Shown: positions 16,809 through 45,014 of the stretch, one piece after another
Layout of the letters: the number at the start of each line of letters is the position of its first letter
Position numbering within the stretch: position 1 is the first letter of the stretch
Origin: Treponema sp.
GTDB lineage: Bacteria; Spirochaetota; Spirochaetia; Treponematales; Breznakiellaceae
Length of the DNA: 64,000 nucleotides
Direction of reading: 5' to 3'
Assembly (NCBI GenBank): GCA_009782955.1
Contig: WRIB01000003.1
Coordinates: forward strand, 1-64,000
The notes under the pieces: model-generated
Database searches by the model: none
Seen by the model: only the letters and a program-made list of their open reading frames with translations
What the model was told of the DNA's origin: nothing
Translations under genes and position numbers: made by a program

Positions 16809-16921
16809 TATGTACCCCTTTGGGCTGCGAACGTAAGGAAATTGTTTATAATTGAGGTTATTCCAAAATCTGACATTTTGGAACAGCCTCACTATTACCG
16901 CCAGGAGGCGGTATGTATATG
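16807..16921 (+). repeat. SD-hairpin repeat copy, interrupted by a GGCTGTTCC-type palindrome (about 16853-16891)
   Basis: ATGtacccctttgggctgcgaacgtaaggaaattgtttataatt...ACCGCC-AGGA-GGCGGT-atgtatATG resembles the 44019-44201 units. Confidence 0.65.
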
Positions 16922-17410
16922 CGGTATTTTATATGCACTCTGGACAAGATAAACTTAGGCATTCCTGCGGAAAGAACGGAGCGGATTATTCCGGTTACCC
17001 GGATACAAACAGCAGTATTTGAAACAGAAAACGATAATGATAACGACAACCGGAAGGCTTTTATTTCCCTGCCGCTGTTGTTTCTGCAAAATGATTCTGT
17101 AACTCCACATGCACATACCGCGTTAAGCGGTGAACTTACATCAAATTCCTTATGCTCGCCGGTAACGGCGCCGTGGCCCGAAGGGATGCACGGGGTTGTT
17201 CTTAAAGCTAATGACGGAACTGAAACTCCCAAAACAGTGCTGCTGACCCCCCGGATTGATATAGATTTGGAGATACCCGAAGAAGATATTCATAGCCTGC
17301 CGGAAGCTTTTGTTGGTTTTTTCAGGTATTTCAAGGGAGTTTATTTTACGGAAGATAGAATAATTCTGATTCTTAATATAAAAAAATTAATGGAAAAATA
17401 CAATGATTAA
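16919..17410 (+). CDS. CheW-like protein 2 containing a repeat-derived internal segment (track start 16913)
   Basis: RYFICTLDKINLGIPAERTERIIPVTRIQTA N-terminus is CheW-like; operon position; AGGAGG with 10-nt spacing to ATG 16919. Confidence 0.7.
   Translation: MRYFICTLDKINLGIPAERTERIIPVTRIQTAVFETENDNDNDNRKAFISLPLLFLQNDSVTPHAHTALSGELTSNSLCSPVTAPWPEGMHGVVLKANDGTETPKTVLLTPRIDIDLEIPEEDIHSLPEAFVGFFRYFKGVYFTEDRIILILNIKKLMEKYND
17104..17192 (-). repeat. Antisense copy of the SD-hairpin repeat inside the CheW-like CDS
   Basis: Reverse complement tcccttcgggccacggcgccgttaccggcgagc (17154-17186) is identical over 33 nt to 44058-44090; flanks also align (aaggaa..t..t.ta.agttcaccgc....gcggtatgtgcatg). 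Confidence 0.85.
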
Positions 17411-40936: not shown

Positions 40937-42256
40937 ATGAGTTTTCTTGACCAGGTACGTGAGGCAGGTATAGTCGGCGCCGGAGGCGCCGGATTTCCCA
41001 CCCATGTAAAACTGGACACACAGGCTGAATACCTCATTGCCAATGGCGCAGAATGTGAGCCGTTACTCCGCTCGGATCGCCGTATTATGGAAAAAAACGC
41101 CGCTGACATAGTGCGCGCCATGCTTGCTGCAGCGGAACACATGGGTGCAAAAAAACTTGTTATTGCGACCAAAAGCCATTACGAAGAAGCGGTTAACTCA
41201 CTTAAAAAAGCAACTGCCGGAACAAAAATAGAGCTTCATTTAATGAAGAGTACTTATCCTTCCGGCGACGAACAAACTCTTGTATATGATGTTACAGGCC
41301 GTGTTGTTCCTACCGGCGGAATTCCTCTTGATGTAAAAACCGTGGTTTCCAATGTTGCCACCCTTGTAAACATTGCAGGCGCTCTTGACGGTAAACCTGT
41401 AACAGACAAAATAATTACCGTTTCGGGAGCGGTAAAAAATCCCGTTACCATGGAAGTTCCCATAGGCACTCCCATAAGTGCCCTTATCGAAGCGGCAGGG
41501 GGTTTTGAATCGGGAAATGCCGGCGATTATGAAGTGATACTTGGCGGCCCTCTAATGGGCGCTTCGGCACAAAGCCTGGAAGAGCCTGTAACAAAGATCA
41601 CCGGGGGCATACTGCCTCTGCCGAAAAAACACAAACTTCTTTCGTATAAACACGTAGATTTACAAAGGCAGGCAAAACTTGCCAAAGCTGTATGCTGCCA
41701 ATGTTCAATCTGTACCCAGCTTTGTCCGCGGGCTGCGCTTGGTCTTGGCGTTGCTCCCCATAAGGCAATGCGTGCACTCTCTTCAGAAAAAGGCAATTTG
41801 CTCGGTAATACCGACAGTCTTTTTAGCTGCTGCGAATGCGGAATTTGTAGTTACTATGCCTGTAACTTTGGTCTTGCCCCATCAACGGTAATGGGGAACT
41901 TTAAGAAGGCCATGATGGGAGAGGGGATTAAACCGGAAAAAGAAAAAGCAGGTCCTGTGGATTCCGGACTTGGGGTTAAAAAAATCCCTTTAAAGCGGCT
42001 TATGTCACGGCTTGCTCTTGTAAAATACGATCGGGATGCACCGTTAATATCTTTTACCGGAAAAGTAAACGAGTACCGCATTCCTCTGAAAATGCACCTG
42101 GGCGCTCCCTGCAAAGCAGCGGTAGAAAAAGGGACGGCAGTAAAAAAAGGAACGGTTATTGGAATACCTCAGGGATTGGGATCGCTGATCCATGCGCCGG
42201 TTAATGGAACAGTGGTTGATGTACAATCTGATATCATAACAATAAAGGCAGAGTAA
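40937..42256 (+). CDS. PduS/RnfC-like flavin and iron-sulfur protein
   Basis: VGAGGAGFPTHVKLDTQAEYLIANGAECEPLL (RnfC N-terminal FMN/NADH region); SLBB region; CCQCSICTQLCPRA and CCECGICSYYACNF clusters. Confidence 0.92.
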   Translation: MSFLDQVREAGIVGAGGAGFPTHVKLDTQAEYLIANGAECEPLLRSDRRIMEKNAADIVRAMLAAAEHMGAKKLVIATKSHYEEAVNSLKKATAGTKIELHLMKSTYPSGDEQTLVYDVTGRVVPTGGIPLDVKTVVSNVATLVNIAGALDGKPVTDKIITVSGAVKNPVTMEVPIGTPISALIEAAGGFESGNAGDYEVILGGPLMGASAQSLEEPVTKITGGILPLPKKHKLLSYKHVDLQRQAKLAKAVCCQCSICTQLCPRAALGLGVAPHKAMRALSSEKGNLLGNTDSLFSCCECGICSYYACNFGLAPSTVMGNFKKAMMGEGIKPEKEKAGPVDSGLGVKKIPLKRLMSRLALVKYDRDAPLISFTGKVNEYRIPLKMHLGAPCKAAVEKGTAVKKGTVIGIPQGLGSLIHAPVNGTVVDVQSDIITIKAE

Positions 42257-42260
42257 GGTA

Positions 42261-42809
42261 ATGAGAAATGCACTGGGAATGATAGAAACCATGTCCATAC
42301 CTTTGGGTATACAGGCCGGCGATGCCATGCTCAAAGCTGCGGGAGTGGAACTCGTAACGTCCCAGGCAGTCTGTGCGGGAAAATATATTGTTATTGTAGA
42401 AGGGGAAGTTGCAGCGGTTCGCTCTTCTGTAGAAGCAGGCAAAACTTCCGCGGGTTCTGCCCTGGTGGATTCCCTTGTAATTCCCGGTATACATGAACAG
42501 GTAGCGCCTGCTATTGTTGCAACCGCAGAAACAGAAGATGTAAATGCTCTTGGAATAATGGAAAGTTACAGCATGTGCGCAGCCATACAGGCAGCGGATG
42601 CAGCGGTAAAGACTGCGGCGATTAACCTTATCGAAGTCCGGTTAGGAAGGGGTTTGGGCGGCAAGGCTTTTGTTATACTAACCGGAGAAGTTGCCGCTGT
42701 CCGGGCCGCCGTTGAAGCGGCGGAGAGTTTGGAAGAAGTGCATGGTATGCTTGGGGCAAGTACGGTTATTCCGTCTCCCCATAAAAAAATAATTGAATCT
42801 ATTTGTTAA
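42261..42809 (+). CDS. BMC-T tandem-domain shell protein, PduT-like (Cys38 conserved)
   Basis: ALGMIETMSIPLGIQAGDAMLKAAGVELVTSQAVCAGK and ALGIMESYSMCAAIQAADAAVKTAAINLIEV: two BMC domains. Confidence 0.94.
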   Translation: MRNALGMIETMSIPLGIQAGDAMLKAAGVELVTSQAVCAGKYIVIVEGEVAAVRSSVEAGKTSAGSALVDSLVIPGIHEQVAPAIVATAETEDVNALGIMESYSMCAAIQAADAAVKTAAINLIEVRLGRGLGGKAFVILTGEVAAVRAAVEAAESLEEVHGMLGASTVIPSPHKKIIESIC

Positions 42810-42834
42810 ACAAATACATTTGTAAGGAGTTGGT

Positions 42835-43122
42835 ATGAAAGAAGCATTAGGAATGGTAGAAACCAAGGGACTTATCGGAGCCATTGAAGCGGCCGATGCC
42901 ATGGTAAAAGCTGCCAACGTAGAACTTATCGGCAAACAGCAGATAGGATCAGGGCTGGTTACCGTTATGGTCCGGGGCGATGTTGGAGCTGTAAAAGCTG
43001 CTGTCGACGCCGGAGCTGAAGCGGCCAAACGTGTGGGAAATCTCTACGGACTTCATGTAATCCCCAGACCTCATGGTGATGTGGAAGGGATACTGCCTTC
43101 GGTTCCCAAGGCGGCAAAATAA
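42835..43122 (+). CDS. BMC-H hexameric shell protein 1 (PduA/EutM family)
   Basis: [64 protein letters not shown]. Confidence 0.97.
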
Positions 43123-43395
43123 GTGTATACGGGCATTGTTACCGGAACTGTAGTCGCTACGGTCAAGGAGGAACGTCTTCAGGGAATTCCCCTTTTAACC
43201 GTAAAACTGATTGAAAACGGGAAAGAGGCCGGCTCTATTGTTGCCGGAGACTCAACCCGTCAGGCAGGACCTGGTGATTATGTATATCTGATCGGATCTA
43301 AGGAAGCCGCAAAGATGTTCCGCAAAGACGTACCGGTCGATGCGGCCATAGTCGGCTTTATAGATACATACAACGAAGAAATACCCCCAGGGTAA
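43123..43395 (+). CDS. BMC-P vertex protein 2 (EutN/CcmL family; GTG start)
   Basis: YTGIVTGTVVATVKEERLQGIPLLTVKLIENG...VAGDSTRQAGPGDYVYLIGSKEAA. Confidence 0.92.
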   Translation: MYTGIVTGTVVATVKEERLQGIPLLTVKLIENGKEAGSIVAGDSTRQAGPGDYVYLIGSKEAAKMFRKDVPVDAAIVGFIDTYNEEIPPG

Positions 43396-43400
43396 AAATT

Positions 43401-43421
43401 AAAGAATGAATAACATTCTTT
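43401..43421 (+). promoter_or_regulatory. Intercistronic hairpin upstream of BMC-H 2
   Basis: AAAGAATG-aataa-CATTCTTT perfect 8-bp stem, then aggagg RBS. Confidence 0.6.
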
Positions 43422-43435
43422 ACAGGAGGATCTAA

Positions 43436-43705
43436 ATGAAAGAAGCATTGGGAATGGTAGAAACCAAGGGGCTTATCGGAGCCATTGAAGCGGCGGATGC
43501 CATGGTAAAGGCTGCCAATGTAAAACTTGTCGGCAAAGAACAGATCGGCTCAGGATTGGTCACCGTTATGGTACGGGGCGATACCGGCGCCGTTAAAGCT
43601 GCCGTTGATGCGGGCGCAGCTGCCGCCAAAGTAGTGGGCGAACTCTACGGTCTCCATGTTATTCCCGCTCCCCATGATGATGTGGAAGGAATACTGCCCA
43701 AATAA
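43436..43705 (+). CDS. BMC-H hexameric shell protein 2
   Basis: [65 protein letters not shown]; near-paralogue of BMC-H 1. Confidence 0.97.
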
Positions 43706-43714
43706 AGGCCGATT

Positions 43715-44014
43715 GTGAAAATCGCCAAAGTTGTTGGAAACCTCATCTCCACTATCAAGGATAGAAGTTTTACAAACTATAAACTGATGATCGTGGAATA
43801 CCTCAATCCCGACGGAACTCCCGACGGTAAGCGTCAGATTGCCTTTGATGCGGCCCATGCAGGGGTGGGAGATATAGTTCTGGTAAATGTAGACGGCGGA
43901 GCGGCCAATATGTTTACAGGCGATAAGGAACTTATCGCAGATCTTACTATTTGCGGGGTTTTGGACAGTTTTACTATCAACGGCAAACAGACTGTTGCCC
44001 AACACGGAAAATAG
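43715..44014 (+). CDS. BMC-P vertex protein 3 (EutN/CcmL family; GTG start)
   Basis: KIAKVVGNLISTIKDRSFTNYKLMIVEYLNPDG...AFDAAHAGVGDIVLVNVDGGAANMF...CGVLDSF. Confidence 0.92.
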   Translation: MKIAKVVGNLISTIKDRSFTNYKLMIVEYLNPDGTPDGKRQIAFDAAHAGVGDIVLVNVDGGAANMFTGDKELIADLTICGVLDSFTINGKQTVAQHGK

Positions 44015-44018
44015 CACA

Positions 44019-44201
44019 GTTATTGTAGTTCACCGCCGGAGGCGGTGTGTGCATGCGTCCCTTCGGGCCACGGCGCCGTTACCGGCGAGCGCAAGGAAGT
44101 TATTATAGTTCACCGCCGGAGGCGGTGTGTGCATGCGTCCCTTCGGGCCGCGAGCGCAAGGAAGTTATTATAGTTCGCCACCAGGAGGTGGCGTGTGCAT
44201 G
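44019..44201 (+). repeat. Tandem array of 2.5 units of the SD-hairpin repeat upstream of DeoC 3
   Basis: agttattrtagttCACCGCCggaGGCGGTGtgtgcATGcgtcccttcgggcc...gcgagcgcaagga twice (44019-44098, 44099-44163), then partial unit agttattatagttCGCCACCaggaGGTGGCGtgtgcATG. Confidence 0.9.
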
Positions 44202-45014
44202 AATGTGAATGAAATTATTAAAGAGACCGAAAGAGAACTTGGAAAGCTTTTGGGAACAGGCAGTAAAACGGCACTGCCTACCGCTGTTCTTCCCGTTTCC
44301 CATTCCGGATTAAGCCTTGGTCCGTCCGCAGAACTGCGCGGTAAAGGTATGAATTTGACAGTTCCGGGTAAACTTGAACATTCTCTTCTCGATCCGGGAA
44401 TCAGCAGAGAAAAGATTAATGCCGAATGTAAGCTTGCCGCTGAATACAGGGTGGCCAATGTGGTGGTGTCTCCCTATTATGTGGAGTGTGCTGCAAACAT
44501 TCTTGGCAGTACCGACGTAGCGGTATGTTCTGCAGCGGGTTTTCCCCACGGTGCCGCTTCTCAGACGGCAAAAAGCGCAGAACTCCGTGAATGTATTCGC
44601 AAAGGTGCTGCGGAAATGGATGTGGCATTAAATGTGCTGGCAATAAAAAGCGGTGAAATTGATATTGCACGGCGTGAATTACAGGAAATGCTCCAAATTG
44701 CCCGGGGCAAGTGTCTGATTAAGGCAATTTATGAACAGTCTCTGTATTCTGATGAAGAAAAAAAGGCTGTTCTTTCTTTAATTCGTGATTGCGGATGCGA
44801 TTTTGTTAAAATCTCCAATGCCCTTTCCGGAAAAAAAGCCGAAGAAGCGGATGTTATATTTGTGCGGAGTATTGTAGGCGGCAAAGTCGGTATCAAAATT
44901 GATGGCGGTGTAAAAACCCTGCAAAGGGCTCTGGAGCTATTTAACAGCGGTGCAGATCGTATAGGTTTAACAGCCACTATAGGTGTTGCAAAAGAAGCCC
45001 TTGGAACCGGTTGA
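44199..45014 (+). CDS. Divergent DeoC-family aldolase 3 (alternative in-frame starts 44133/44127)
   Basis: CSAAGFPHGAASQTAKSAELRE, MDVALNVLAIKSG, CDFVKISNALSGKK, VGIKIDGGVK; N-terminal helix MNVNEIIKETERELGKLLG. Confidence 0.88.
   Translation: MNVNEIIKETERELGKLLGTGSKTALPTAVLPVSHSGLSLGPSAELRGKGMNLTVPGKLEHSLLDPGISREKINAECKLAAEYRVANVVVSPYYVECAANILGSTDVAVCSAAGFPHGAASQTAKSAELRECIRKGAAEMDVALNVLAIKSGEIDIARRELQEMLQIARGKCLIKAIYEQSLYSDEEKKAVLSLIRDCGCDFVKISNALSGKKAEEADVIFVRSIVGGKVGIKIDGGVKTLQRALELFNSGADRIGLTATIGVAKEALGTG

Follow-up and report, generated by a model that had tools for sequence, protein, structure and literature searches.

The repeat in front of deoC at positions 44019–44201 of the window (the whole stretch of 64,000 nucleotides of Treponema sp. 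DNA that was analysed) consists of 2.5 units of a dispersed element family. Our analysis indicates that this family is very probably a small mobile palindromic element, resembling the Rickettsia palindromic elements (RPE), which supplies its own Shine-Dalgarno (SD) sequence and start codon. Such an element could insert where a bacterial gene is most sensitive and leave the gene functional, since it brings its own ribosome-binding site (RBS) and start codon.

Architecture and distribution of the element

The canonical unit can be written as NATG-[hairpin 1]-CGAGCGCAAGGAAATTATTATAGTT-[hairpin 2]-TGTGCATG, with TGTGC-ATG as its end, and usually measures 66 nt from ATG to ATG. It carries no gene of its own and contains two separate hairpins of 6–7 bp each, the first of which frequently has a CUUCGG apex. 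The left end is NTG (mostly ATG), directly followed by the stem of hairpin 1, and the right end is ATG. A longer variant (loci L087, L088, L053, L120 and L158; L-numbers are locus labels and G-numbers genome labels, here G000, G001, G003, G004 and G045) has an extra hairpin, GAAGCTGCTRTCGCAGCAATTTT, ahead of the SD part, and the units are therefore modular. In a short variant (L164 and L169 in G003, L198 in G001) AAGCAAACCTTTGGTTTGC is paired with hairpin 2 and the canonical linker is missing. Tandem units occur in the deoC leader, at L003/L004 and in an insert within an M20 peptidase gene. Related repeats at L099, L206 and L217 stop directly at apparent tRNA genes (CATAGCTCAGTTGGTAGAGC).

The first-pass annotation had suggested a genome-wide search, and the pattern did indeed recur. 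In the genome to which the window belongs, a termite-gut Treponema bin, 43 BLAST matches to the repeat were found, the tail pattern GGNGGNGNNGTGTGCATG (at most one mismatch) gave 27 matches versus none for a reversed control, and a covariance model gave 43–50 hits. Of 79 relatives, 28 carry the element; at E ≤ 1e-5 it was detected in 35 of the 200 family genomes, and three genera have numerous copies. These counts derive from model, BLAST and pattern searches of incomplete bins (MAGs). No Rfam family matched the element, nor was a match found in the phage and viral collections searched. The likelihood that we are dealing with a chance likeness of GC-rich leaders or with an assembly artefact is virtually negligible: the only point in its favour is that the genomes are MAGs, and against it stand the absence of control matches, the covariation of the stems and the presence of the same element in independently assembled genomes.

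The deoC leader

The units lie on the forward strand, between the stop codon of an EutN-like gene (44014) and the start of deoC, and each closes with a hairpin, TGTGC and ATG. Unit 1 (44018–44055) lacks the left hairpin and has CACCGCC/GGA/GGCGGTG as hairpin 2 (44031–44047) and ATG at 44053–44055. Unit 2 (44053–44135) measures 80 nt from ATG to ATG, with an enlarged hairpin 1, hairpin 2 at 44111–44127 and ATG at 44133. Unit 3 (44133–44201; 93 bits, E 1e-24 in the model search) is a canonical unit of 66 nt, composed of hairpin 1 (44136–44150), a linker (44151–44175), hairpin 2 (CGCCACC/AGGA/GGTGGCG, 44176–44193), TGTGC and the start codon ATG (44199–44201). Its SD sequence GGAGG (44184–44188) combines the AGGA of the apical loop with the GG that opens the 3' arm; 10 nt separate it from the ATG. 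The sequence, hairpins and spacing are as the first-pass annotation described them, to which can be added the unequal spacing of the units (80 and 66 nt) and the incomplete left part of unit 1.

The gene that starts at the ATG of unit 3, deoC (44199–45014, forward strand), encodes a DeoC/LacD-family aldolase of 271 residues (PF01791) and is the last gene of an operon (40937–45014) that resembles a bacterial-microcompartment operon, with RnfC/PduS-like, BMC shell (42261, 42835 and 43436), EutN-like (43123 and 43715) and DeoC aldolase genes; all of these except DeoC were named by eye from the translations. The ATG of unit 1 (44053) opens an ORF of 49 codons, the TGA of which overlaps the deoC ATG (ATGA). 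Translation from the ATG of unit 2 (44133), which shares the deoC frame, would prolong the N-terminus of DeoC by 22 residues (MRPFGPRAQGSYYSSPPGGGVC). Since tandem units give several SD-ATG pairs, automatic gene calling in these genomes is likely to misplace starts, and gene callers may choose a wrong deoC start among the upstream ATGs in 44053–44201.

The nearest relative with deoC (L058, 83% identical) has one unit before this start, a variant of another kind that ends in AAGGGGGCGGTGTGTGCATG, and in two more distant relatives no element is present at the deoC start. A simple tandem duplication was considered and rejected, as none was detected by TRF and units 2 and 3 differ at both hairpins. 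The 2.5 units may have been stacked through repeated insertion or duplication.

Presence and absence at start codons

Comparison of orthologues from sister genomes showed precise ATG-to-ATG presence or absence of the element at 12 start codons, six of which are filled in G004 and empty in G000 (L142, L147, L151, L153, L202 and L199), and six filled in G000 and empty in G004 (L064, L070, L071, L072, L039 and L087); the polarity of insertion versus loss is unrooted in these comparisons. Examples are 'cagaaaATG[66 nt]ATGattaaa' in G004 versus 'cagaaaATGatcaaa' in G000, and 'gcgcccagaaaATG|AGG...GTGTGC|ATGattaaaccc' in G004 versus 'gcgcccagaaaATGatcaaaccc' in G000. Two starts (L147/L164/L237 and L199/L162/L240) are filled in both G003 and G004 and cleanly empty in G000, which implies either precise loss (excision) or recurrent insertion. 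Nine of the 12 empty-site starts lack an SD core (GGAG, GAGG, AGGA or AAGG) in the upstream SD window, and in four a -10-like hexamer lies 3–9 nt ahead of the ATG, a spacing like that of leaderless genes. Among the filled sites, 11 of 12 carry an SD sequence of the GGAGG, GGGGG or AGGAG type in the hairpin 2 loop; the remaining one, the L087 variant, has AGGAGG adjoining an alternative hairpin. Another start-codon copy in the window (16809–16921, forward strand) precedes the gene at 16919–17410 and has an extra hairpin before hairpin 2 and the sequence CCAGGAGGCGG-TATGTAT-ATG.

These empty sites raise the idea that movement is directed at start codons, for instance at open DNA in the promoter or leader of leaderless genes, whereby leaderless or SD-less genes would become SD-led and translation initiation would be rewired across the genome. 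We hold this to be unlikely. Upstream of the left ATG (3–9 nt), -10-like boxes were found in 11 of 53 start copies, compared to 5 of 53 at a control position and 1 of 35 other copies, which is weak ground for leaderless starts as general targets.

Retention of the SD sequence

The SD sequence is the feature that start-codon copies retain. In G000 and G004 it was present in the hairpin 2 region of all 27 copies before a gene and in none of the nine others (p = 1e-8); as six start loci are common to the two genomes, the independent numbers are somewhat lower. For this count, copies were collected with a probe outside hairpin 2 to avoid bias (no control matches), loci were sorted by hand, each set of tandem units contributed a single count, and the masked locus C112 of G004 was excluded. 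A wider set, derived from the model, carries a bias, since start copies made up most of the material behind that model; in this set the SD sequence was found in 62 of 66 start copies versus 7 of 44 others (two in-gene copies excluded). Viewed from the other side, 62 of the 69 copies with an SD sequence lie before an ORF of 100 codons or more, and of the 41 without one, 37 do not. The loops of hairpin 2 at starts are AGGA, AGGG or AAGGA, and elsewhere AAA, TAAA, TTCG, AGAA and others. Copies inside genes have AGGTGG, GGAAGG or other sequences instead of an SD sequence, as expected if internal initiation is harmful.

Covariation of the stems

In 18 copies from the genome of the window 95.3% of the alignment cells are paired, and eight of the 12 base pairs show changes on both sides; the covariation score was 0.423, compared to 0.147 ± 0.022 in shuffled alignments (none of 500 reached the observed value). 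Orthologous copies common to several genomes also keep their stems, and in the pair L074/L140 two base pairs have changed with compensation. The stem covariation before start codons that the first-pass annotation had noticed in the window thus holds genome-wide.

That annotation took the covariation as a sign of selection on an RNA hairpin sequestering the RBS of deoC, and in its general form this reading makes hairpin 2 an RNA switch under selection, with deoC and many other genes as its regulon. It draws on the covarying and conserved stems just described and on the position of the SD sequence in the isolated hairpin 2 (-11 to -14 kcal/mol), half of it (AGGA) in the loop and half (GG) in a GC stem of 6–7 bp. 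The stems, however, also stay paired in copies that do not precede genes: in these, 89% of the cells of hairpin 2 are paired versus at most 86.4% when the arms are re-dealt, and 83% of those of hairpin 1 versus at most 71.6%. Both intergenic copies and copies within genes, some of which lie antisense in proteins, have paired and covarying stems without an SD sequence. Stem conservation thus belongs to the element, since the stems are paired in copies with and without an SD sequence alike, and the covariation is not readable as selection for RBS sequestering. Moreover, the host genes, among others those for LysRS, polyphosphate kinase, glutamate 5-kinase, bactofilin and DeoC (named by eye from sequence, except DeoC), are functionally unrelated, and many of them have no copy of the element in close relatives. 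Such diversity of hosts, together with the rapid turnover, speaks against a dedicated switch, which we regard as a rather doubtful explanation. What stands of the earlier claim, besides the genome-wide covariation before start codons, is that hairpin 2 encloses the SD sequence of deoC, and the predicted fold makes it possible that sequestration of this sequence regulates deoC. Covariation of stems within a repeat family should by itself not be taken as proof of RNA regulation; here it agrees with a mobile palindromic element that depends on its structure.

Insertions within genes

The element is also inserted in frame in unrelated protein genes on both strands, and empty or insert-free orthologous sites were identified at four positions. 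Sense inserts occur in a P-type ATPase (22 codons between KVA and MVGDGIND), in PtsI and in the FAD-binding subunit of Xdh; antisense inserts occur in a DHH phosphoesterase (directly after the DHH motif), an M20 peptidase, FlhF, an ABC ATPase and a radical SAM protein. The P-type ATPase site reads 'gctATG[66]ATGgtaggagac' versus 'gctATGgtaggagac' when empty, and for the DHH phosphoesterase an empty site was found in an orthologue. In PtsI, with the predicted peptide RPFGPRAQGNYYNSPPEGGVC, the insert is flanked by ATA on both sides, and PtsI proteins of relatives have no insert and other codons at this site. The gene at 16919–17410 of the window, in addition to the copy at its start codon, has an internal antisense copy in frame (17108–17188, reverse strand; 81 nt or 27 codons, HAHTALSGELTSNSLCSPVTAPWPEGM), which is flanked by the His codons CAT/CAC and is absent from the G004 orthologue. 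All four insert-bearing host proteins tested were recognised by Pfam.

These copies bear on two further explanations. In the first, the family would be a static set of portable leaders, copied among gene starts by recombination or gene conversion and without transposition. The modularity of the units, with alternative hairpins, and the tandem units in the window and at L003/L004 agree with such copying, but the clean inserts in unrelated coding genes, in either orientation, with ATG/CAT at both ends and without flanking homology, do not, making this a quite improbable account. In the second, the insert would be skipped in translation, like T4 gene 60 or the mitochondrial byps. Bypass elements use one and the same codon for take-off and landing, with a hairpin behind the take-off site and an SD-like motif ahead of the landing site (PMC5009743), and the Treponema copies do resemble this in their paired ATG or ATA codons, the CUUCGG hairpin immediately behind the first ATG and the SD-like sequence before the second. 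In-gene copies, however, are open and in frame, which bypassing would not need, they have lost the SD sequence, and the antisense copies carry these features reversed. Ribosome bypassing is therefore highly improbable.

Possible mode of movement

For the mobile element that we favour, we propose that insertion would occur at ATG/NTG trinucleotides, leaving ATG at both ends. Inserts are bounded by ATG/ATG or ATA/ATA, and also by TTG, CTG or ATA on the left with ATG on the right. The ATA/ATA ends in PtsI suggest, on sequence grounds, a short target duplication; L039 (TTG/ATG), where the native codon is TTG, points to a right end that is fixed, like that of IS200/IS605. At a start codon, the downstream ATG would become the new start and the SD sequence in the loop of hairpin 2 the RBS of the gene (start use was deduced from ORFs and orthologous starts); as both would serve the gene, insertion would replace the leader and not kill the gene. 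Selection would then keep the SD sequence at starts and let it decay elsewhere, and the hairpins probably persist because they are required for movement. In the mRNA, initiation may be damped or regulated by hairpin 2, whose loop holds part of the SD sequence.

The subterminal hairpins, the head-to-tail units joined by ATG, the clean empty sites and the lack of inverted repeats resemble, by analogy, the products of peel-and-paste transposition. The likeliest route would be recognition of structured single-stranded ends, as in IS200/IS605 or REP elements. Terminal inverted repeats are in general absent, the ends being (N)GGGC... and ...TGTGCATG. A Y1 transposase gene (PF01797) was not found in the carriers G001, G003, G004 and G045, which are incomplete bins; G000 has one, and no copy of the element flanks the Y1 genes examined. 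A Y1/RAYT transposase was rejected as the mobiliser, being inconsistently present and never flanked by copies.

Comparison with known repeat families

A search of open-access papers yielded no SD-carrying mobile element that lands on start codons. RPE are small, palindromic, multicopy sequences found in frame in unrelated genes and in intergenic regions; they are open in several frames and have no known mobiliser (reviewed in PMC2229807, PMC10969869 and PMC3733652). The Treponema element likewise enters unrelated protein genes in frame as well as intergenic DNA, and would extend the in-frame palindromic insertion known from Rickettsia to the Spirochaetes. In contrast to RPE, which form a single long palindrome of about 100–150 bp, it measures 66 nt and has two short hairpins, targets ATG/CAT, is enriched exactly at start codons and has a built-in SD sequence. 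With REP/RAYT and IS200/IS605 MITEs it shares short hairpins, a short target motif, tandem head-to-tail copies, clean empty sites and the absence of terminal inverted repeats. Unlike these, most carriers have no Y1 transposase, and copies are situated at starts and in genes, not extragenically only; the unpaired GTAG (or CGTC) tag beside the stem of REP is lacking, and where CGTC occurs in some copies it lies within the stem.

The element further resembles BOX, RUP and SPRITE of pneumococcus, Correia and ERIC MITEs in being a dispersed, non-autonomous repeat of the kind that alters expression of its neighbours. The boxC part of BOX can supply a start codon for new ORFs, which lack a good SD sequence (PMC3049150), whereas the Treponema element ends in an SD sequence and a start codon at existing gene starts. 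Like thermosensors and riboswitch-like leaders it presents the SD sequence in a stable hairpin near the start codon, but unlike SD-sequestering RNAs it has no Rfam match and keeps its stems without an SD sequence. Copies at starts, between genes and within genes offer a natural experiment on what a hairpin-presented SD sequence needs. A classical MITE, finally, has terminal inverted repeats, which this element lacks. As the defining features of RPE, REP and classical MITEs were each looked for and found wanting, we set the element apart from all three and file it as a new variant of the small non-autonomous palindromic elements.
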